A stretch of 64,000 nucleotides of DNA, from NCBI GenBank assembly GCA_963576735.1, contig OY755187.1, positions 6,696,001-6,760,000 on the forward strand, given 5' to 3'. Shown in pieces: positions 44,731-62,328 of the stretch. The translations under genes and the position numbers were made by a program. The DNA is from Bedellia somnulentella. Its lineage: Eukaryota; Arthropoda; Insecta; Lepidoptera; Bedelliidae. Each line of letters begins with the position of its first letter. Positions within the stretch are counted from its first letter, which is position 1. Below the pieces are notes generated by a model. It was not told where the DNA came from, searched no databases, and saw only the letters and a list, made by a program, of their open reading frames with translations.

Positions 44731-44919
44731 ATGTTCAATTTCATTTACATTTTACATTTTGTGAATATGCGAAGGTATAAAAGTGTTTTTATTATAGCCG
44801 AAGAGCTAAATGATATCGGCATTAAATTAAAGTCTATAAAAGAAAACTTAAACAAGTTGAGTTACGAAAAGAGAACTCCCAGAAAAATTGCAGTGCAGGT
44901 TAGATTGATCTGTGCTTAG
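44731..44919 (+). CDS. Start of a second retroelement ORF (possible gag N-terminus), truncated
   Basis: MRRYKSVFIIAEELNDIGIK, LKSIKENLNKLSYEKRTPRK after an upstream Met at 44731 (the inner Met at 44767 is likelier). Amphipathic, coiled-coil-like, ending in a basic RTPRK. The sequence switches at about 44902 to the minus-strand repeat-family gene, so the rest is lost. The order small membrane ORF, then coiled-coil ORF, on the same strand suggests the 5' end of one errantivirus-like element. Confidence 0.4.
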   Translation: MFNFIYILHFVNMRRYKSVFIIAEELNDIGIKLKSIKENLNKLSYEKRTPRKIAVQVRLICA

Positions 44920-45162
44920 ATCTTGGGCGGTCACATGCGGCAGCTCTGAGGGTATTGCCTGATATTGGACAACGGGTGTCATTTCACATTTTTCCAACTC
45001 TTTTTCAATTTTTCCCGAATATGTATTGGGTCCCGAAGTAGCGCCATCGATATGTGCAAACAAGTGCTGAAATGGCAGCTCATTCATATGAAGCAGACAG
45101 ACAATCCATTGCAATGGTTTATTCAACTGTTTTTCTAGTAAACGTATGATTTCTGCATACTT
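44903..45162 (-). pseudogene. Repeat-family protein (GCDGTNVN family), 3' part
   Basis: Minus strand YAEIIRLLEKQLNKPLQWIV, CLLHMNELPFQHLFAHIDGA, SGPNTYSGKIEKELEKC, VTAQDLSTDQ. RLLEK.L.+PLQW.VC.LH.NELP.RHL...DG.T.GP..+.G.I continues directly from the segment ending GCDGTNVNVGK at 47436. It is truncated at DLSTDQ (about 44903). Family known to me only as an uncharacterised, multi-copy invertebrate protein. Confidence 0.65.
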
Positions 45163-45355
45163 TGTTAAAAAAGTTATTATTGTGCAATGTAATATGGTCA
45201 AGGTGTGAGTGAGACAAAGATATATATCTCTCTCCCTCTCTAGGTGTCATGGCGTGGCGTTGTTCTGTATTAGGTAGGAGTGTGTAACTGTGTAGCAAAA
45301 AGTTAATTAAATGTTTTTCTAAAGTTTAAGCCTTCTTTTAATTTATATTCTATCT
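45163..45355 (+). repeat. 5' LTR (193 bp)
   Basis: TGTTAAAAAAGTTATTATTG... to ...AATTTATATTCTATCT. Contains CTCTCCCTCTCT microsatellite and GTCATGGCGTGGCGTTG. Confidence 0.92.
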
Positions 45356-46143
45356 GGTTATGGGCCCAGTTGTAGACAATCTTTGGGCCTTGAAATTTAC
45401 ATGCATTAGAGCGTGCTTTATCTCAGCTGTTTCATCACTTATTCCCGTCAAAGTGGGGATACATCTGACTTTTGGATCCAGCTGTGTTCTTATCAACCTC
45501 AATTGAGCCGCCCATGCCATATGAGGTGATGTTAACTCACCCATCTTGTTTTTCAAGGTGTCAAGTATTGACTTGTCAATGTACTCTCTCTGGATGCTTG
45601 AGTCAGGCAGAAAAGCTTGAATTATGGCTTCATTTCTCATGCTAGCAGGTAGTTCTGCAATGGGTATTGAGTTCTCACCACTGACCTCTCCAGTTCAACC
45701 CTTCCAAACTGAAAAGCCATTCTTTTCCAGTCTACCTTGTAATAGTCAGACACACTTTGATCACCCTTCCTGCATAGCACTTCTATGACCTCTTTCGCCT
45801 CGGGACTTGGATCTCCTGCTTCTTTTATCCACCACTCAATCAACCCATATGCGGCCAGTATCCTCCCATGAAGATGTGAGTCCTCAGGTCCTATGAGATG
45901 TTTAGGAACCCCGAACTTCAGAACAGAGTCTCTTCTCACAGTTAACGGATATTTGCTAGACATGTTTGTCATGGTTGTCACCAAAGGGTTGGGTTCTTTT
46001 ACATTTCTAGAATTTCTCTCTATCAGTCTTATATTGTTTGTGCTTGTGCTCCGCAATATTGATATTGACTTTTCCTTCGCCGCTTTTATTTCTTTCACTG
46101 CTGCCATGAGTTGATCTTTCGCTGCCCGATCTGGTTGGTCCAT
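45350..46143 (-). pseudogene. Orthomyxovirus-like PB2, N-terminal ~260 residues, one frame break
   Basis: Two frames (45637-46143; 45350-45660) overlap. Reading continues sensibly if the frame changes at about 45680, just before IAELPASMRNEAI; the ATGA stop/start overlap at 45637-45640 is then coincidental. Landmarks for the PB2 N-terminal domain: a helical start (KEIKAAKEKSI), NPLVTTMTNMSSKYPLTVRR, EWWIKEAGDP, then the PB1-adjacent linker-like region ending TLTG...EIKHALMHV. The ATG at 46141-46143 may be the viral start. The open frame runs through the primer site into the LTR (GPITR stop). PB2 is the cap-binding subunit of the viral polymerase; this part is truncated and non-functional. Confidence 0.6.
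45356..45369 (+). promoter_or_regulatory. Primer-binding site, Copia type
   Basis: GGTTATGGGCCCAG immediately after the 5' LTR. Copia elements prime minus-strand DNA from an initiator tRNA-Met 5' half; the decayed Copia at 51919 has the same site in the form GGTTATTGAGCCCAG. Confidence 0.8.
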
Positions 46144-46166
46144 TCTATTTTTGTTAAAAGGACTGT

Positions 46167-46472
46167 TTATACTAGGTTGATATGGTATTTTAACATGTCA
46201 TCTCTAATTTCTAGGTATTTCTCTCCAACTATCCAAACAATGCTCTTTGTTCCTATTGGGATTATATCCCTTTGTTCGTGTAGAGTCTTCAAACTTCTAA
46301 CTGTTTCTCTCTCCGGGATGTATTGGGAGAAACGATATCCAGGTATCAGACCTGTCATCAGTCTTCCAGTATCTGTGTGTCCCCCTTCTTGCACTATCAA
46401 TTCTTTCCCATATATTATTAAATTTCCTGAAGTTGATACCTGAACGATCCCTTCATAAGCCTTGAGGGACAC
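46167..46472 (-). pseudogene. Orthomyxovirus-like PB2, C-terminal (627/NLS-like) domain
   Basis: About 100 residues on the minus strand, without an ATG (the frame opens just after a TAG upstream). NLIIYGKELIVQEGG, LMTGLIPGYRF, ERETVRSLKTL, DIIPIGTKSIVWIVGEKYLE. The strand-turn pattern L.I.GKE...G, long helix, then IP.G.K....VG...LE follows the PB2 627 domain, and it ends at its own stop near where PB2 ends. It lies upstream of, and in the same orientation as, the N-terminal piece with only 23 nt between, i.e. tail-before-head order. Assignment from fold-level motif similarity only. Confidence 0.5.
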
Positions 46473-46531
46473 CGTGTCAACATCATTGTAGACACAATTA
46501 TGATCAAACTAACTCCCGATTTCCCTCAAAA

Positions 46532-46960
46532 ATGAGAGTAGAAGCCTTGTCAATGACAAATCGGAAGCCTCATGAGTTCTTGAGGGTGCATGAAGAGCAG
46601 TGGCTAAGCTGGTCTCCACAAAACGGGGGATCTATAGGCCCTCTGCACATTGATGAAAATGTAGAATATCAAGAGGCTCCACAAACATTCCTTCAACCGG
46701 ATGACAACTTAAACATGATAAGCAAACACACAGGGCAAAGAGTCAGTCTGCCACCAATCCCTAGGAATCTGCCCCCTCTTCCTGCTGTTGTTGACTCAGG
46801 CAATCCAATGTTGATTGACAGCTTATATCCATCCAAATTGCTGAGGAAGAAAATAATGTTTTTCCATTCAAATGTAGGTATGATGATGGATAAAATAGCT
46901 AGGGATAGGTGGGACTGGCAAAACGCTGCTGTTTCATCATACCTACCTACCCAGGAATAA
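46532..46960 (+). pseudogene. Orthomyxovirus-like PB2, middle/cap-binding region piece (inverted)
   Basis: 142 codons on the plus strand, AAAAATGAG start context, open to a TAA. EALSMTNRKPHEFLRVHEEQ, WLSWSPQNGG resembles the cap-binding domain strand FLRVx..xxLSPxxG; the remainder (IPRNLPPLP, KIMFFHSNVGMMMDKIARD) is not clearly assignable. Opposite orientation to the two other PB2-like pieces, 59 bp from the C-terminal piece. If the assignment is right, all three ORFs derive from a single segment. Confidence 0.45.
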
Positions 46961-47228
46961 AAGCAAACATTTCAGCATGTGCAGTCAATTTCATTAAGAT
47001 GGCTGTCACTTCCACTCATTATCAGAAATTACTAATCTGTTTCTGGTATTGCTTCACTTCTTGAGTTCGTTGGGAACTACACTCCTACCATGACTTTTGT
47101 CAGTGGATAATTTAGTTATAAGTTAAAAGTAGATATGTATCCTCATAAATAAAAGATGTTATTAAAGGAAAGAAAGGAATTCATGTCAAAAAACATTAAA
47201 TTAAGATATGTATCCTGTTTATTACATT
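46961..47228. other. Cargo without recognisable coding
   Basis: 268 bp between the middle-domain ORF and the purine tract. May include further viral or Copia sequence; no motif that I can support. Confidence 0.4.
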
Positions 47229-47237
47229 GAGAGGGGG
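47229..47237 (+). promoter_or_regulatory. Polypurine tract
   Basis: GAGAGGGGG abuts the TGTTA start of the 3' LTR, as expected for the plus-strand primer. Confidence 0.8.
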
Positions 47238-47435
47238 TGTTATAAAAAGTTATTATTGTGCAATGTAATATGGTCAAGGTGTGAGTGAGACAAAGATATA
47301 TATATCTCTCTCTCTCTCTCTAGGTGTCATGGCGTGGCGTTGTTCTGTATTAGATAGGAGTGTGTAACTGTGTAGCAAAAAGTTAATTAAATGTTTTTCT
47401 AAAGTTTAAGCCTTCTTTTAATTTATATTCTATCT
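47238..47435 (+). repeat. 3' LTR (198 bp)
   Basis: TGTTATAAAAAGTTATTATT... to ...TATTCTATCT. Near-identical to the 5' LTR; differences listed under the element. Confidence 0.92.
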
Positions 47436-48560
47436 TACTTTCCAACGTTCACATTCGTCCCGTCGCATCCAATTGCCAGCAAATCACCCATACATAGGTT
47501 TTCATTTAAAAAATATTCTGTGATTGCCTTTACTATCATTTTAGAAGTTCCGGAAGTTGGTGTAGTGTGACCTAAATAAATAGAGCCTGGTTCTTTTATA
47601 AGTGATATATGTTCCTCCAGTATAGTTTGCCTGTAATACTTTGCTCCTTGTTTTATCATCGTAAGAGTTCGATCTTTGCGTCCATCGAAATATAAAGCCG
47701 GGATTGATTGTACTTTGTCCTTAGACATTATACTTTGTCGTGTTTTGGTTCTTTCTCGGCGCAATTTGTTTTTGTCAATCACCGGGGCAGACTCTGTTGC
47801 TTGCAAATCTACGGAAGCAATAGCTGCTTCTGCCCTGTCGGATATGCCAAACCTATCGCAAGTTTTTGAAAGCGCAGAAAAATTTATTCCGCTGGATACC
47901 TGCTGAGATGTAGTTGGTTTGGGTACCTTTACTACAACTACTGAATCATCGGAATCGTTGGTAATTGATGATGAGGATGAAGAACTAATTGGTTCTATTG
48001 GAATCTCGGTGCGATCTATGCTTTTGTTTCGTGCATTTTGTTGTTGTAAATGTTTTATTTTCAATGATTTTCTAAGTTGATTAATACTAGTGACGTCGAC
48101 GTTTCCTATAATCATTTTTCTCAAGGTGCGTTGATCAGTCAGAAAAATACGCTCATTTGTTGGTACTTTCCTTTCTTTATAACATATGCATGAGTTTAAA
48201 TCTTTGCATTTGCAAGAACAAATGTCAAAGAGAACCTTGCTATTGCGCTGAAACTCATCTATGTTTTTCTGGGGTATTTTAGGGTGAGATTTGAGGAGGT
48301 TCTTGTACTTAAGATGGTACGATTTTAGCATTTGACATACTCTAGCGTGTGTCACAGTTGGTAAAGATGCTTTATTCCAAATACCTTCAATTTTTTTCAC
48401 AACAATATTCGCGATTTCCAAAAATGTTGGCTCTTTTTGTGAACTTTTGTTGAATTTGACTTCCCTTCTCATCCATTCGTAATATTTGATTAAATCCTCA
48501 TAGGTTGGTAGCACATTCTCTTTTATATCGCACAATTCACCTAGCAAAGGACATTTGAAA
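47436..48560 (-). pseudogene. Repeat-family protein (GCDGTNVN family), 5' part
   Basis: Minus strand from about 48560: FKCPLLGELCDIKENVLPTY, YYEWMRREVKFNKSS, a cysteine cluster FDICSCKCKDLNSCICYKER, a Ser/Asp run, INFSALSKTCDRFGISDRAE, DKNKLRRERTKTRQ, ALYFDGRKDRTLTMIKQG, EPGSIYLGHTTPTSGTSK and ending LAIGCDGTNVNVGK at the LTR element. Continuing at 45162 the frame is exact (GK|YAEIIRLL). About 370 residues open here. The upstream exon is not found. The cysteine cluster suggests metal binding; function unknown. Transposon-encoded or domesticated status cannot be decided. Confidence 0.65.
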
Positions 48561-48670
48561 CTTTTTCAAGTACGTTCCATGAACTGAGCAAAACACGTCC
48601 TCTAGGTATAATAACTGCGGGGCAAGCACGAGCAAAAATGGCCATATCGAAATACACACTATCTTATCGA

Positions 48671-51940: not shown

Positions 51941-52687
51941 ATGATGTCAAATGATTGTTCAAATGCAAGTTCAAGAGATTCACCCTCGGGAAGTTCGGGA
52001 AGCCTTCCTTCAATAGAGAAATTGAATGGTGCGAGTAATTATTCCTAATGGAAATTTCTCATGGAATTATATCTAATTCATGATGATTTATGGCAGTTCA
52101 CAAGTGAAACTCCAACTGATGCCCAAGGTGTAAAACGAGATCAGAAGGCTCGGGCAAAGATTTGTCTGATGGTAAGACCTCACTGTCTAGTTCATGCTCG
52201 AAGAGCACAAACCGCCAAGGAAGCATGGAATGCTTTAAGAGACGCATTCGAAGACAAGGGTCTAAATAATAGATGTCGACTTTTATCAAAGTTAGTCGGA
52301 ATGAAATTAGAGAATTTCCCAACGGTTAGAGATTATGTTACTGGAATTATGCGTACTTCGCAAGAACTGTCAGATTTAGGAAAGGAAGTAGATGATGAAC
52401 TCTTGGCTGCCCTCATTCTCCAAGGTTTGACTAGTGAATTCCAACCAATGAGACTCGCTATAGAAAACAGCAATGTTGCACTTACTACAGATTACGTTCA
52501 AAAAAAACTATTTCAAATGGAAAAACATTACCACCAGAGTCATTTAAGTGAAAACAGTGCACTTATGAGTAAGAAGCAAAAAGGAAAGAACTTTAAAAAA
52601 CATATGAATAAAATAAAGTGCTTTATATGTGGAGGGCCACATAAAGCTAATGTCTGTTCCGACAACACAAATAAAAGGAAGGAATAG
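51941..52687 (+). pseudogene. Copia gag with nonsense codon
   Basis: ATG at 51941 (MMSNDCSNASSRDSPSGSS). KLNGASNYS then TAA at 52046-52048 where the usual 'NY..WK' continues as WKFLMELYLIHDDLW; UBN2 capsid region ARRAQTAKEAWNALRDAFED, LENFPTVRDYVTGIMRTSQE; zinc knuckle CFICGGPHKANVC. The knuckle is C-x2-C-x3-H-x4-C, one residue shorter than the canonical CCHC spacing. Stop at 52687, then the protease in another frame. Confidence 0.88.
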
Positions 52688-52691
52688 TACA

Positions 52692-53115
52692 AGCTGAGGA
52701 GTCAGAAGAATGGATTATAGATTCTGGAGCCTCTACTCATATGTCGAATCGGATGTCGTGGTTCAAAGAGTTAAATAAAAGCGAAAAACTTTTAAAAGTT
52801 ATGTGTGCTGATGGAAATGTAGTTTTGGGTGAAAGTAAAGGGACTGTAGAGTGTGACAAGATTGGTTTAACTATAGGAAATGTAACATATGTACCGAAAT
52901 TATCTTCAAATTTATTGAGTGTGAATGCCATTGCGAGAAAGGGAAATGTGGTGGTATTTACAAAATCTGGATGTGAGATCTTTAAAAGAGATGAATGTGA
53001 GATAAGAGGAAAGGCTGTATTAAAAGGTGTAGAAGAAAAAGGCATATATAAACTTAAGTGCTGTTTACAGGGTTCTGCACTTTCTTCAGCTACTCAAGAT
53101 AATCAGTTGATGTAA
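52692..53115 (+). pseudogene. Copia protease and pre-integrase linker
   Basis: VQAEESEEWIIDSGASTHMS carries the catalytic DSGAS. Continues CADGNVVLGESKGTV, YVPKLSSNLLSVNAIARKGN, GVEEKGIYKLKC and stops at 53113-53115, directly before the HHCC region. It begins in a different frame from gag; in Copia gag and protease are normally one frame, so a 1-nt change near 52688 broke it. Confidence 0.85.
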
Positions 53116-53832
53116 TGGCATCGTAGGATGGGACATCTTGGTGTAAGAAATCTCATATTACTTAAAGATAAACTGGCAAAAGGGGTAAGTTTTCCCAAAT
53201 CTATTAATAAAATAGAATGCGTATCCTGCATAATGGGCAAATAAACCAAACAGCCATTTCAGAAAGGAAAAGCTACGAGAGCTTCAAATATGTTAGAATT
53301 AATACACGCAGACGTATGCGGACCCATGGAGGTAGCGTCAATTAGTGGGTATAGGTATTTTTTAACATTCATAGACGATTTTACGAGAAAAACGTTTATT
53401 TATTTTTTGAAACAGAAAAATGAAGTTTATGAGAAGTTTATACAATTCAAAGAGTTTGTTGAAAAACAAAGTGGAAGAAAACTGAAGGTTCTTAGAAGTG
53501 AAAATGGAGGAGAGTTTGTTAACAAGCAAATGAACAATTACTTTGAGCGATGTGGAATAGTACACCAGATGACAGTCGAGTATACACCCGAACAGAATGG
53601 GGTAGCCGAGAGGGCTAATCGCACAATCTGTGAAAAGGCACGATCAATGCTACAAGATTCTGGATTAGGAAAGCATTACTGGGCAAAAGCTGCTCGACAT
53701 GCAGTTTTTCTGAAAAACAGGGTTGTGTGGCATTTATGCACATTCCTTAGCAGAAACGGAAAAAATGGGATCAGAAAAGCAGAGAGCTTGTTCACACTGG
53801 TATCTGTGATGATACTAAGGCTTATAGGCTAG
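53116..53832 (+). pseudogene. Copia integrase, with altered catalytic residue
   Basis: HHCC zinc part WHRRMGHLGVRNL...ECVSCIMGK with an in-frame TAA at 53242-53244. Core LELIHADVCGPMEVASISGY (first Asp), FTRKTFIYFLKQKNEVYEKF, KVLRSENGGEFVNKQMNNYF (Glu where the second catalytic Asp stands; third Glu present in VEYTPEQNGVAERANRTI). After FLKNRV the frame shifts (the in-frame peptide WHLCTFLSRNG is out of phase) and the C-terminal part is shortened. Confidence 0.85.
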
Positions 53833-55252
53833 TGGACCCCAAAACAGGAAAAATCTTCAAAGCCAGAAATGTTATATTTTTTGAAAATAAGAGAATTGGT
53901 AAAAATGGGAACTTAGAGAAGATTTTTGATGAAGATGAAGAAATTGTGTATATTAGTGTAGAGCAGAATCCACAACAAGATTTAGTTAACATTAATTATG
54001 ATATTAATCATACAGTAGAGTAAACTGATAATAGGAATCTGCAATATGAAGATGTCTATCAACAACCCGTAGATGTCAATCAGCAGACAGCAGAAAGAAT
54101 TCAGCAAGTTGAAAATGATAGTAGTCCAGCAGTTGAAACAAGAAGTGAAGAAAATATTCTTGAACCAACTACAAGAGCGAATGACGAAAACGAAGATGAG
54201 ATAGAAGAATTTGTTGAATGTGAGCCTATTACAGACAATGAAGAGATACCCTTGGAAGAAGGTGGTCGAAGATATCCACTAAGAGATAGGAAGCCAAAAC
54301 TATTTCCTGATTATATACTATATCAAGCAGCTGAATTGATTCAAGATCCGAAAACCATTCAAGAGGCACTATCTAGAAATGACAGTGAAGAGTGGAGAAA
54401 AGCTATCCAGGAGGAGTTGGATGCTCTCCAGAAAAACCAGACTTGGAAGTTGGTTAAGAGACCGAGTAAATGTCACGTCATTGATTGTAAATGGTTATTT
54501 AAAATAAAGGACGAAGGGGGGAATAGAAGACGATATGAAGCGAGGCTGGGTGCAAGAGGTTTTGATATGGAGTAGATTATGATCAGACCTTTGCTCCAGT
54601 CGTACGACATAGCTCCCTCAGAACATTATTGGCTTTTGCAGCATATAGTGGATTAAAGATTGCTCAATTGGATGTGAAAACTGCATTCTTAAATGGAGAT
54701 TTGTCTGAAACCATATACATGAAACAGCCGGAGGGTTATGAAATAAATGGTGAAGATTATGTATGTTTATTAAAGCGGTCCTTATATGGATTAAAGCAAG
54801 CTCCAAGGGAATGGAATCGTAAATTAAATAAGGAGTTATTAAATTTAGGTTTTATCCAATCTCTTTATGAACCTTGTGTTTACACAAGATATAACGGATC
54901 AAAGATAACTATATTAGCAATATATGTAGATGACATGCTAATATTTTGGAATGATAACCAGGAGCTAGAGAAAGTTAAGAAAGGTTTGATGACTAAGTTT
55001 GAAATGAAGGATCTCGGAAATGCAGAGTATATATTAGGGGTGCGCATCACACAAAATGATAAAGAGATTAGAATTGATCAAGAGAGGTATATTAATAAAG
55101 TGTTAAAATCTTTTGGGATGATTGACTGCAAGAGTGCATCAACACCTTCAGTACCTGGTCAAAAACTTGACAAACCAGGACTAGAGCACATAAATAATAA
55201 GAATATACCGTATCAAACTCTAATTGGGTCATTGATGTACATAACTACATAG
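53833..55252 (+). pseudogene. Copia reverse transcriptase
   Basis: Linker LVDPKTGKIFKARNVIFFEN (frame shifted near 53830), acidic spacer, then NDSEEWRKAIQEELDALQKN, TWKLVKRPSKCHVIDCKWLF, a frameshift at about 54572 (GFDME), LKIAQLDVKTAFLNGDLSET (first Asp), RSLYGLKQAPREWNRKLN, LAIYVDDMLIFWNDN (catalytic YVDD) and NAEYILGVRITQ. Stop near 55250. Catalytic residues are intact, but the gene is cut by at least three lesions. Confidence 0.9.
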
Positions 55253-57487: not shown

Positions 57488-58935
57488 ATGAGCAGCGAGA
57501 TGGAAGATATCTTAGCTACTCAGCAGCAGATTATCAACGGCGTAGAACAATTTTACGTTAATTTTAAGAAAGACAACTTTGAGAGGAAGCATTCACTTGG
57601 CTACGCTAAAAGGAAACTCGAACCCCTTGACGCGTATTGGAGAGAATTTCAGACAAACCATATCAAACTTTGCGGATTTAACATCCCGAATCATCAATAT
57701 TTTACGCAAAATCAATACGAAAGTTGTAAAAGTAGGTACGAGTATATAAAAAGCAAGATAGAAGCTGTTCAACATGAAAAACCAGCTTCCCTGCTGAAGC
57801 CACCAGTTCTCGTGGTTGGCGAGGCATTCGCCAGCTCCTCAGGAGAAGGCGGCGCGGGCTCCGGCGCGCAGGCCGGGAACACCATCGCCTACTCTACATC
57901 ATCATTCGCAATTTGCTTCAACCTCTACTCTAAAGTTATCTGAGAAAATGAAGGAGTTATTAAAAAGGCAGAACAGTAATTTCAGAGCTCTACAGCGTAC
58001 GTTAACAGGTATCCACATGAATAATATAACGGAGAAGTGGGAATTAGAAGATACATTACGCAGCATCCAAGCTAGATGGCAGATCATAGACTCGCTACAT
58101 TGGGAGTTGGACAGCGAACTGGAGGGAAAACATGAGGAGTATGAAGAAGCTTTCTCTTATTACGAGCAAAGCTACAGCAACGTCAAAAAAGAACTTAACA
58201 AGAAGATGTGGTCGACTCAACATAGGGACAAACTGACTCCACAGATGGATATACCTTCTTTTGAAGGCAATTATCACCAGTGGGTGTCCTTCAAGGACCT
58301 GTTTACGGAAACAATCCATCTAAATCCTTCATTATCAGGCGCACAGAAGATGCAGTATTTAAAATCAAAGGTGAAAGGAGAAGCTGAACGTTTAATCCAA
58401 CACCTTCCTATCAGCTCTGAGAATTATGACGTTTGTTGGCAACTACTTAATCAACGATTCAATAACAAAAAACTAATTTTCACATCCCTTATCAATATCA
58501 TAATGAACATCCCTATCATGCAATCAGTATCAATTCACGGCATCAAGCGCCTTCACGACTCGGCGTCAGAATCGCTCAACGCTATCAAAAAACTTGGTGT
58601 GGATACCAGTAGCTGGGATCCATTGCTCGTCCACATTCTAGCACAAAAGTTGGACTCAGAGACTCACAATGAGTACTTGGCCTCTCTAAAAGAACCAAGA
58701 GAACTACCGAATTGAGATGAATTCTTAAAATATCTCGAAAATAAATTCACAACATTGGAGTCGTCGCGCAAGAAACAGGAGAATATGATATCAAAAACGG
58801 GTCCAAATTACAATCAAAATCATTCAAAATATCAATACTCAAAACCTACTTATTTGAAACAATCATTTACGGCGATAAATAACTCAATTTCGCAACGCAA
58901 ATAATCAGGGCACTGCAAGAGTTCAACGCTCGGGC
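57488..58935 (+). pseudogene. BEL/Pao gag (DUF1759), frame changes and a stop
   Basis: MSSEMEDILATQQQIINGVE at 57488. A helical N-terminal region is followed by an Ala/Gly-rich linker; the frame then changes at about 57905 into KMKELLKRQNSNFRALQRTL. DUF1759 core: LTPQMDIPSFEGNYHQWVSF, KDLFTETIHLNPSLSGAQKM, QYLKSKVKGEAERLIQHLPI, CWQLLNQRFNNKK. A TGA at 58713-58715 interrupts ...ELPN|DEFLKYLENKF. The zinc-knuckle region expected before the protease is missing (58860-58935). The Gag would form the particle; this copy probably cannot make it whole. Confidence 0.85.
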
Positions 58936-59376
58936 GTGTCACAGCCGCAATCATCATCATCAGCAAGAATGGAAAATGGTCAAATACGTGGAACTTCGCA
59001 CGTGTCATTGCAACCACATAACGTCACCGAGATCCTATTAGCAACAGCAATTATCAATATCAAGGGAGCCGACGGGAGCTATCATACATTCAGAGCCTTG
59101 CTGGACCAAGGATCGCAAACATCCCTTATCACGGAGCGAGCGGTACAAGAGCTTGGTCTTTCGCGGAAAAAATGCCTAGGAACTATATCAGGCGTAGGAA
59201 TGAAGGAAAACAGCTGTAAGGGCCTGATCAGCATACAATGTTCATCAGTAAACCATGACTTTTCATTCTCTATGGAAGCATTTATCATGAATCATCTTAT
59301 CAGGAACCTGCCTAGTTATTCATTTGCGGAACCACAGTGGGACTTTTTAGAAAACATCAACCTAGCGGACCCTTAA
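58936..59376 (+). pseudogene. BEL/Pao aspartic protease
   Basis: TEILLATAIINIKGADGSYH, FRALLDQGSQTSLITERAVQ, ELGLSRKKCLGTISGVGM, then ENINLADP. LLDQGSQxS is the DxGS active site in the form used by BEL/Pao. The next residues (FYVSRPVDLLLGAEVY) are in this frame after a TAA at 59374-59376. Confidence 0.88.
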
Positions 59377-60360
59377 TTCTACGTGAGCCGTCCAGTAGAT
59401 TTACTGCTAGGAGCAGAAGTATATTCAAAAAAATATTAATGAATGGAATTTGTAAAATTGATGACAACCTTCCTATTGCGCAACAGACGTGCTTAGGTTG
59501 GATTTTAAGCGGTAGTTTCAGATCATATCAATGCAACATCGTATTACATAACATGGACGAAATACAACAAATCGAGGATATCACGGAAACATCATCATTA
59601 TCAGTATCAGATCAAAATGTCATCAAGTTTTATGAAGAAACAACAAAACAAAAAGCTTTCGCCCAATTTCATCAATTAGAACGTAAATTAAATAACAATA
59701 AAAACATCTCGGAACAATATAAAGTATTTATGAATAAGTACAAACAGCTCGGTCATATGACACCAGCCGATAACAACATGAAACCCGACTATTATAAGCC
59801 CCATCATCATGTGACTAGAGAGGACTCTATTAGCAGCAAGTTAAGAGTTGTTTTCAATGCTAGCACACCAGGACTGCCATCAAACTTAAGTCTCAATGAC
59901 CTCATGGAGAGGGACCCGAATCTGCAGCAAACAATCAAGTCTATACCACTGGACTGCTGGCGCTATGCGGAATCCAAGGACAGCCCAGCTGACTGCGCAA
60001 GCAGAGGTATCAAACCGGAGCAACTACAAAACCATAGTATATGGTGGCAAGGGCCCTCATGGCTACCTACATATCATAACAGAGATGCGGAAAGGACACT
60101 TTACTCGACTGAAAAGGAGGTAAAAAAGATCAAACAAGTGAACAGTGTTCTTATATCAGAAAAGGCAATCACCAAGATACTGGATCACTACAGCTCATTT
60201 TCAAAAGCTGTACCAGCAACAGCGTGGCTCGCACGATTTATCAAATATCTATCAGACATTAGGAATGGGTATGTGAGGGTGATGACTGTGAAGACGAAGA
60301 ACGGAGTATTAAAACTCTCTCGTCCACCTGTCCATTCAACTAACTGCTCCAAAAATGTAT
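59337..60360 (+). pseudogene. BEL/Pao pol remnant with two internal deletions, frame kept open
   Basis: After an A-run near 59430 the correct frame is NGICKIDDNLPIAQQTCLGW, ILSGSF, then FYEETTKQKAFAQFH. RT starts SKLRVVFNASTPGLPSNLSL, NDLMERDPNLQQTIKSI; there it jumps directly to the post-RNaseH block CWRYAESKDSPADCASRGIK, HSIWWQGPSWL. The RT palm (catalytic Asp pair) and RNaseH are gone. It next jumps from AWLARFIKYLSDIRN to the integrase C-terminal GYVRVMTVKTKNGVLKLSRP, without the catalytic core. The open frame still continues into Env. Confidence 0.85.
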
Positions 60361-62328
60361 CATCTTCATCAAGCAATCAAGACCTAAAACAACCCACTGC
60401 ATCAATAGAAAATAATAAAAGACCACAGAGTACAATCAGGAAGAAAAACATAAACCTTTTATCATTAGCTTCATTACTATTGTTTTTCTTCAGCTTGTTA
60501 ACCACGTCGCAATGCGCCTACAACTTCACAAAATTACCACCTAATCAAATGTTATACTTCGACAAATTGAGCAACATGCAAATTATAAAGGACGACTGGC
60601 GACTCGTTGTCTATTATGACTTAGATCCGTATTGGGCTGGACTAGAAACACTTAATAAACAATTAAAATACCTGGACGGCTCATGTTCTGCGATAAGAGG
60701 TCAGTCACATTGCGAACAGATCATATCACAATTACAGCACGGGTTCTCAGAAATACGCTACTACAATGAGGTTTTGCTGACTCAAAAGCCGAGCGTGTAC
60801 GACAGACGGCATCGTCGCGGACTGATAAACGGTATTGGAAACCTAGCAAACAACTTATTCGGAATATTAGACGATAAGTTCGCTTCAAAATACGAAAGGG
60901 ACATCAGCCTAATTAGAGAAAATGAAAATCATTTAGCGAAGTTATGGAAAAATCAAACGTCAGTTGTAGAAGCAGAATTTAACCTTATGAAAAGAATGGA
61001 GAGTTTTATAAATAAACAGCACAAATCTATCAATCAACGCTTATCAAGTTTCGAAAACACAATGAATACCATGGGAAAACAAATAAATTACTCATCACTG
61101 ATAAACGATTTCACTATGTCATCAATAATAGCCAACAATATGTTAAATCAAATTAAATCTGTGCAGACTGTTCTACTTGACACCATCACAGATATATACA
61201 ATGGAAAGCTGAGCTTACATATGTTGACCCCGGAACAATTACACCAAGAGTTAAATATCATATCAGCACAAATACCGAGAGATTTAAGCATCCCGACATC
61301 AGAGGTACAATTACCTAAACTTTATCATCTTCTTAAAGTAAAATCAAAAATATCAAGAGAGTATTTAATCTTCGAGATTTCCATACCTCTACTATCAAGA
61401 AATATGTATGAAATATATCAAGTCCTTCCCATTCCGAAACAATCATACAAGAATATGATAAAAATAGTCCCTATATCAAGTTACGTAGCGATAAACCTAC
61501 AGAAAGAGTCTATGATACCGATTACTGCCGAAGATATTAATTCATGCTTAAACCAAAACGAAGACACAATTTTATGCCATATCAGCAAACCAATGATTCA
61601 TTTATCAAATGATGAATGCGAGAAGAATAATCAAACATCCATTTGTAACTCAATTACCACTGATTGCAGAAACAGTTGGATAGAACTACATCCCATCAAT
61701 AGTTACATGTATTTTTGTTGTAATCAATGCAACATCAAAATATTATGCAAAGACCAAGCTGTCGCGCTACAGCTGAGTCAGGCTGGATTATTTACTCTAT
61801 CTGGAGAATGCACTATCAGAGCTAAGGAATTCACCGTAACATCCCATTACCAAAGGTTTAACAACCTGACCATAAAGGCCGACTTATCAATCCCAGAAAT
61901 AGCACCAATCAACAACATCATCAACATTACCTTACCTGTTAACGCTAATATCAGAATATCACGAATCAGAGCTAAATTTAATCAAGCAGAAAATAGATGC
62001 TATGAAAGAAGAAACTCCGCTACTATCAGACAGAGCGACATATCACGACATCCATCAATACACGGTTCTGTACGGCATGCTGGGAGTGATGGCGGCGGCG
62101 GGCGGCTGGTTTCTGTGGAGGCGGCGGCGGCGCGGGCGCTCCGCCGGGGACGCGGCGACGGCCACGGGCGGCCCTAAGCCCGAGCCTGCTGTTCTCTACA
62201 GGGTTAAGTGTAGTGCATGTGAAATAGCAAATTTCGGTCGTGATAATTTAAATTTTCAGTGTAGTGAGAGTGGTTACAAAGTCCCTATAGTGAGCCCGCG
62301 TAATAAAAAGTTCAATAGATCAATGTGA
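60361..62328 (+). pseudogene. Errantivirus-type Env (F-like glycoprotein), one frame break near the end
   Basis: Signal-like hydrophobic segment LLSLASLLLFFFSLLTTSQC at about 60457-60520. Ectodomain start PPNQMLYFDKLSNMQIIKDD, WRLVVYYDLDPYW. Basic furin-type cleavage motif RRHRR at about 60808-60822, followed by the fusion-peptide-like GLINGIGNLANNLFGILDD. Helical region, Cys-rich C-terminal ectodomain (CLNQNEDTILC, CNQCNIKILC), then membrane anchor YTVLYGMLGVMAAAGGWFLW and an Arg-rich tail, read in the frame opening at 62002. The main frame runs to 62177 out of phase, so a frame change at about 61990 separates ectodomain and anchor. Insect Env of this type is related to baculovirus F proteins. 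The codon-rich GC patch at 62080-62180 differs from the rest. Confidence 0.85.

Follow-up and report, generated by a model that had tools for sequence, protein, structure and literature searches.

The stretch of DNA analysed here, referred to as the window, comprises 64,000 nucleotides (64 kb) of the moth Bedellia somnulentella (contig OY755187.1, positions 6,696,001 to 6,760,000 of the forward strand; G000:C19:6696001-6760000 in the genome search). At 45163-47435 it contains a 2.27-kb element with two long terminal repeats (LTRs) of Copia type, between which lie rearranged pieces of an orthomyxovirus PB2 gene. The features of this chimera and of the open reading frame (ORF) that it interrupts are given below, with TSD standing for target site duplication, PBS for primer binding site, PPT for polypurine tract, and J1 to J4 for the joints, J1 being that between the PBS and piece A.

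45158-45162, TSD TACTT, left copy, directly outside the 5' LTR
45163-45355, plus strand, 5' LTR of 193 nt, TGTTA...CTATCT
45356-45369, plus strand, 14-nt PBS GGTTATGGGCCCAG, shared, allowing up to 2 mismatches, by 8 of the 10 stretches fetched from the family
45370-46143, minus strand, viral piece A, antisense PB2 residues 259-1, adjoining the PBS, with a frame change near 45660
46144-46175, minus strand, about 30 nt lying 5' of the PB2 start codon, probably viral 5' untranslated region, containing J3
46176-46494, minus strand, viral piece B, antisense PB2 residues 720-615
46487-46494, joint J2, at which antisense residues 615-617 and sense residues 412-414 share the 8-nt microhomology TGTAGACA
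46487-47101, plus strand, viral piece C, sense PB2 residues 411-615, with frame changes near 46950 and 47062
47100-47237, plus strand, Copia 3' tail, with joint J4 at 47099-47101
47143-47203, insertion of 61 nt nested within the Copia tail, the 12-nt duplication AGATATGTATCC standing on either side
47229-47237, plus strand, PPT GAGAGGGGG
47238-47435, plus strand, 3' LTR of 198 nt
47436-47440, TSD TACTT, right copy, directly outside the 3' LTR
47441-48565, minus strand, 5' part of the interrupted host or repeat ORF
44848-45162, minus strand, 3' part of the same ORF, whose frame continues once the element and one TACTT are omitted

A Copia insertion and its empty site

The analysis confirmed the near-identical LTR pair, Copia-type PBS, PPT and TACTT duplication on which the original prediction was built. 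Alignment of the two LTRs over 193 bases shows 2 substitutions; there are also two short indels, one of which lies in a microsatellite. Because the LTRs are near-identical, the insertion is fairly recent, as had been proposed; with neutral rates of 2.8e-9 to 1e-8 per site per year, their divergence corresponds to an age of about 0.5-1.9 million years. Each LTR begins with TG and ends with CT instead of CA, an ending also seen in other family copies. The PBS GGTTATGGGCCCAG occurs once in the window, whereas shuffled sequence would give 0.11 occurrences on average with up to 2 mismatches allowed, and it is presumably complementary to the anticodon stem region of the initiator methionine tRNA. 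Scanning the window with Rfam and for tRNAs gave no hits. The TG-start LTR pair, 5-bp TSD and internal PPT of Copia (Ty1) elements are thus all present. No gag-pol or other retroelement domain was found in the scanned ORFs of the interior, in agreement with the claim that no retroelement gene lies inside, and because the chimera was not found to have a gag-pol of its own, it is non-autonomous at most.

Removal of the element and one TACTT restores an unbroken 479-amino-acid minus-strand host ORF. A protein search with this ORF returned 611 homologues, of which 120 were examined; the best match among these is 88% identical, and the named ones come from beetles, aphid relatives and moths. The insertion point is spanned by 118 of the 120, all 118 of them ungapped at the joint, so that the empty site, which had been suggested as a check, is exact.

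The 549-Mb assembly (486 contigs) contains other members of the same family. A search with the LTRs gave 22 matches, a lower bound like all repeat counts in this search: the chimera's own two, 15 that cover the full length with 82-87% BLAST identity and 5 partial matches with 80-98%. Ten stretches around LTR matches (L009-L018) were fetched for comparison. With gapped columns left out of the alignment, identity of the chimera's LTRs is 92.3-94.5% to those of the main group of copies and 89.5-90.2% to those of L017 and L018. The PBS directly follows the LTR in eight stretches (three exactly, four with one mismatch, one with two), and other sequence stands at that place in L014 and L017. The Copia tail is present in seven of the ten, its 43-nt part 97.7-100% and its 34-nt part 94-97% identical to the chimera's. 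Six LTR pairs were checked for TSDs, and four have 5-bp duplications (CTTTT, CATAC twice and GTGAT). By its family LTR, PBS, tail and PPT, together with the exact empty site, the chimera is a Copia-family insertion.

The one family copy whose domains were tested, L009, has identical LTRs and a 1336-amino-acid open frame with the Copia-type domains Retrotran_gag_2, rve (integrase) and RVT_2; complete members of the family therefore existed recently. Two side observations concern other copies. L010 and L011, about 12.5 kb apart on G000:C10, carry identical LTRs and agree in the flanking bases at either end, which suggests a segmental duplication or an assembly duplication. Parts of the 61-nt insertion nested in the chimera's tail also occur, in both orientations, beside a truncated LTR in L018.

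PB2 pieces in a rearranged order

The interior of the element contains four ORFs longer than 100 amino acids, three of them on the minus strand and the fourth on the plus strand. Searched singly, they gave little direct signal: one of the four matched Pfam (Flu_PB2_3rd, E = 0.11, below the cut-off), and one of the four matched PB2 in the PDB, where six of its seven matches were PB2 (E = 0.28-0.95), while the other three had no or unrelated matches. A protein search with the unpadded N-terminal piece found no match among 55 candidates. Padding of this query let long proteins count as candidates, and the padded piece found three proteins, P0001, P0002 and P0003, among 311 candidates (E up to 1).

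P0001 (747 amino acids, encoded on a 2338-nt contig) matches all four window ORFs, with E values of 6e-87, 3e-59, 3e-58 and 1e-82 in single comparisons. Amino-acid identity to the window ORFs is 72% over P0001 residues 1-162, 84% over residues 161-259, 76% over residues 615-720 and 67% over residues 411-565; a further stretch, residues 567-602, is 83% identical. At E up to 1, P0001 matched 22 distinct PDB sequences; every one is PB2, and the best match, over residues 14-394, has E = 1.8e-5. In Pfam, P0001 (E = 0.15), P0002 (E = 0.097) and P0003 (E = 0.0021) each matched a single Flu_PB2 model without reaching the curated cut-off, and two scans of viral contigs gave 1 and 15 pattern matches, none of which was confirmed. 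The structure of piece B, predicted alone and without an alignment, was too poor to use (mean pLDDT 46.6).

By these sequence comparisons we regard the PB2 origin of the cargo as established. Its C-terminal half is assigned to PB2 through P0001, because it lies in the same protein as the part that matches PB2, and we infer that the donor was an insect-type orthomyxovirus. In the profile check, one ORF gave a subthreshold Pfam signal, and all four are linked to PB2 through P0001. The original prediction had the family right and spoke of three ORFs where there are four; its assignment of N-terminal, cap-binding and 627 domains is only roughly right, as judged by collinearity with influenza PB2. 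With viral sequence lying within host DNA at one locus, this is an endogenous viral element.

On the plus strand, the order is LTR, PBS, antisense residues 259-1, about 30 nt, antisense residues 720-615, sense residues 411-615, tail, PPT and LTR. The pieces cover about 570 of 747 PB2 residues (~76%), and no residue occurs twice except at the shared codon 615. The cargo has three frame changes (near 45.66, 46.95 and 47.06 kb) and no stop within the stretches of the four ORFs matched to P0001. It therefore consists of rearranged pieces of PB2 and is not one viral cDNA: the proposal of a viral cDNA placed between LTRs and inserted as a unit survives as to the chimera, its TSD and its empty site, and fails as to the single cDNA.

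The joints differ in how closely they can be read. At J1 the Copia side is exact, the viral sequence beginning straight after the 14-nt PBS, where all eight PBS-bearing family copies continue with ATAAC(G/A)AAC. J4 is also closely placed: family copies with the tail read CTTTTCTCAGTGG and the chimera reads CTTTTGTCAGTGG, the switch falling in a CTTTT(C/G)TC match at residue 615 in which 7 of 8 positions are alike. Because both the continuation of the PBS and the joint to the tail differ from the family copies, all Copia sequence between the PBS and the last ~140 nt has been replaced by virus. J2 is placed as closely: residues 615-617 on the antisense side and residues 412-414 on the sense side have the 8 nt TGTAGACA in common. 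J3 links the start of PB2 to residue ~720. Microsimilarities of the kind described for LTR-mediated retroposition are thus found at J4, where the cargo meets the Copia tail, CTTTT(C/G)TC, and within the cargo at J2, TGTAGACA.

The codon of residue 615, GTC, stands both at the end of piece C and at the start of piece B. Since C ends and B starts in this shared codon, the two pieces, as placed by protein homology, appear to be neighbours that abut in the virus within ~4 nt, with C inverted. In a model of random placement (three pieces of these lengths, with piece A fixed at residue 1), the probability of non-overlap was 0.093 and that of the end of C meeting the start of B within 4 nt was 0.0036; non-overlap together with at least one contact within 4 nt had a probability of 0.006 (0.6% of trials).

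Probable formation of the chimera during reverse transcription

We consider it highly probable that the chimera formed in a one-off event of reverse transcription and entered the genome as a single Copia cDNA. The enzyme, while reverse-transcribing a Copia RNA, would have left this template and copied an orthomyxovirus PB2 RNA. The template was presumably viral RNA at the time of infection, and a complete Copia of the same family would have supplied reverse transcriptase and integrase in trans. The finished two-LTR cDNA would then have integrated as an ordinary Copia does, with a 5-bp duplication.

Tentatively, we favor a two-ended version of this event, which seems a reasonable possibility, if one at somewhat less than even chances, and in which both DNA ends of the LTR element primed on the same viral RNA. 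Minus-strand cDNA from the Copia tail may have copied plus-sense PB2 RNA from residue 615 to 411. Plus-strand strong-stop DNA, whose end lies exactly at the tRNA-copied PBS, may have copied PB2 from 259 to 1 and then from 720 to 615; the two 3' ends may then have annealed over 8 nt (TGTAGACA/TGTCTACA). Two-ended priming would account together for the PBS joint, the inversion, the adjacency of the pieces and the microhomology. In LINE-1 twin priming, an inverted segment is source-adjacent to its neighbor and is joined to it by microhomology, priming taking place at nicked target DNA. By analogy, the topology proposed here may be that of twin priming, now in an LTR element: it has the same source-adjacent inverted segment and microhomology joint, but priming would come from the minus- and plus-strand DNA of the LTR element itself.

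Several points weigh against this account. The same final order would result from sequential switching or from capture of an already rearranged viral RNA. The figure of 0.6% is conditional on a model that was picked after the data had been seen, and J3 and the viral side of J1 are placed only approximately. The 9-mer TTGTAGACA occurs at both J1 (45370-45378) and J2 (46486-46494), forming a direct repeat that flanks pieces A and B, and two-ended priming does not explain it. Two of the six LTR pairs checked, those of L012 and L013, are without a 5-bp duplication. Lastly, none of the fetched stretches L009-L018 carries the chimera's LTR variant, so that its direct parent was not found among them; this parent may be lost, unassembled or polymorphic.

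The same chimera could also have been made without two-ended priming, by sequential template switching of one minus-strand cDNA, a route that we hold to be possible, though at less than even chances. It would lead from the Copia tail to plus-sense PB2 RNA (615 to 411), on to minus-sense genomic RNA (615 to 720), from 720 to the 3' end of a genomic RNA (1 to 259), and finally to the PBS. The ends of orthomyxovirus genomic RNA are paired, which would help the switch from 720 to 1; the final order would be identical, and the microhomology at J2 (TGTAGACA/TGTCTACA) would prime the switch at that joint too. The route requires both RNA polarities in the particle, however, and it leaves the adjacency of C and B to chance (0.36% of random placements).

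Two further explanations depend on what else the genome contains. The assembly was searched with the LTR pair and with two of the PB2 pieces, and no further copy of either came to light. The two pieces matched at 100% at their own locus and otherwise only at divergent loci. These are two PB2-like inserts: L020 (G000:C27:8168331-8168774) is 29% identical to a window piece and corresponds to P0001 residues 9-225, and L022 (G000:C28:5553187-5553471) is 26% identical and corresponds to residues 213-663. No match longer than 22 nt to the chimera's LTR was found in the 3.3-3.4 kb fetched at each of them, and they represent older or different orthomyxo-like viruses.

That Copia captured, by LTR-mediated retroposition, the transcript of an older, already rearranged genomic PB2 insert is improbable. 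Other divergent PB2-like inserts do exist in the genome, but their identity to the window pieces is only 26-29% where the two can be matched, and the assembly search turned up no close donor for either of the two pieces used as queries; the cargo, moreover, has frame changes yet no stop in the stretches of the four ORFs matched to P0001. It is less probable still, and in our judgment very unlikely, that the chimera belongs to an amplified mobile non-autonomous family. Its LTRs, PBS and PPT are intact and an apparently complete Copia relative is present in the genome, but the 22 LTR matches comprise, apart from its own two, only the 15 full-length matches at 82-87% and the 5 partial ones at 80-98%, the two PB2 pieces have high identity at this locus only, and the Copia leader after the PBS is gone. 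The suggestion that the element is perhaps mobile thus found no support in the copies searched for in the assembly. Because the post-PBS leader has been lost and no second copy was found, onward mobility is unlikely; the LTRs could nevertheless drive transcription of PB2 sequence. Secondary entry of viral DNA into a pre-existing Copia, or an assembly error, is the least credible explanation and hardly to be expected: the tail does carry a separate nested insertion of 61 nt, but the boundaries of the viral sequence fall at the PBS end and at a position in the tail, the empty site is exact, and the contig is at least 6.76 Mb long.

Other retroelements lie nearby in the window. A broken Copia on the plus strand at 52049-55252 has integrase and RVT_2 domains, and self-comparison of 49.0-58.5 kb gave no LTR pair for it; as a candidate parent, this remnant (52.0-55.3 kb) seems unsuitable, there being no match to the chimera's LTR there. 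At 57798-62177, also on the plus strand, there are ORFs that match DUF1759 and, at residues 393-852 of an ORF of 953 amino acids, Baculo_F; they probably belong to an LTR retroelement with a baculovirus-F-like envelope gene.

Precedents and significance

Parts of this event have precedents, which are compared here from excerpts of open-licence papers. In mice, sequence of the arenavirus lymphocytic choriomeningitis virus (LCMV) recombined with an intracisternal A particle (IAP) element in infected cells and animals (Geuking et al. 2009 via PMC3205384). As here, reverse transcription linked RNA-virus sequence to an LTR retrotransposon, and the product was inserted into host DNA; our case differs in being a resident locus with both LTRs, TSD and empty site, and in involving the Copia superfamily and an orthomyxovirus. 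According to the same excerpt, no endogenous LCMV element had been found as of that 2011 review (PMC3205384). In Aedes aegypti, AeBunya1 lies inside a full-length Pao-Bel element, and Copia makes up 1.46% of the surroundings of viral inserts, less than its 5.34% of the genome (PMC5497376). Both cases place RNA-virus sequence within an insect LTR retrotransposon, but the host element here is Copia, the cargo replaces all retroelement genes, and the joints are readable.

LTR-mediated retroposition, in which host mRNA enters the cDNA through template switching at microsimilarities (Tan et al. 2016 via PMC5408686), likewise leaves a cargo between LTRs joined at such sites; the chimera is distinguished from it by a viral cargo, an inversion with source-adjacent breakpoints and a start at the end of the PBS. 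Anakin elements are Pao retrotransposons with a chuvirus glycoprotein (PMC7642597) and so also bear a gene of a negative-strand RNA virus, but they keep gag-pol and are present in several copies, whereas the chimera lacks gag-pol and has no second copy that we found. Quaranjavirus-like or orthomyxo-like sequences are known from arthropod genomes, in Campodea, ixodid ticks and Photinus (PMC6938034, PMC10675110 and PMC6191289); they concern PB1, nucleoprotein or unspecified sequence, and the excerpts describe no LTR-bounded chimera. An early survey reported no evident target duplications around any of the insect insertions that it found (PMC2987831). Judged by titles, the openings of abstracts and the excerpts read, searches of the open-licence literature, a scope outside which most subscription papers fall, brought up no LTR-bounded orthomyxovirus chimera, no Copia-bounded RNA-virus gene with an exact empty site, and no twin priming by an LTR element.

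The route by which RNA viruses that lack a reverse transcriptase enter insect genomes has, in the sources consulted, mostly been inferred from fragments near retroelements (e.g., PMC5497376). Here a single locus keeps nearly the whole footprint of the event: the enzyme family, LTRs, joints, TSD and exact empty site. The entry route thereby becomes testable, with a PBS joined directly to foreign sequence as the search signature. If two-ended priming by an LTR element is real, it would be a way for LTR elements to insert RNA-virus genes into insect genomes in inverted and rearranged form, and there would be a sequence signature to seek in other endogenous viral elements.

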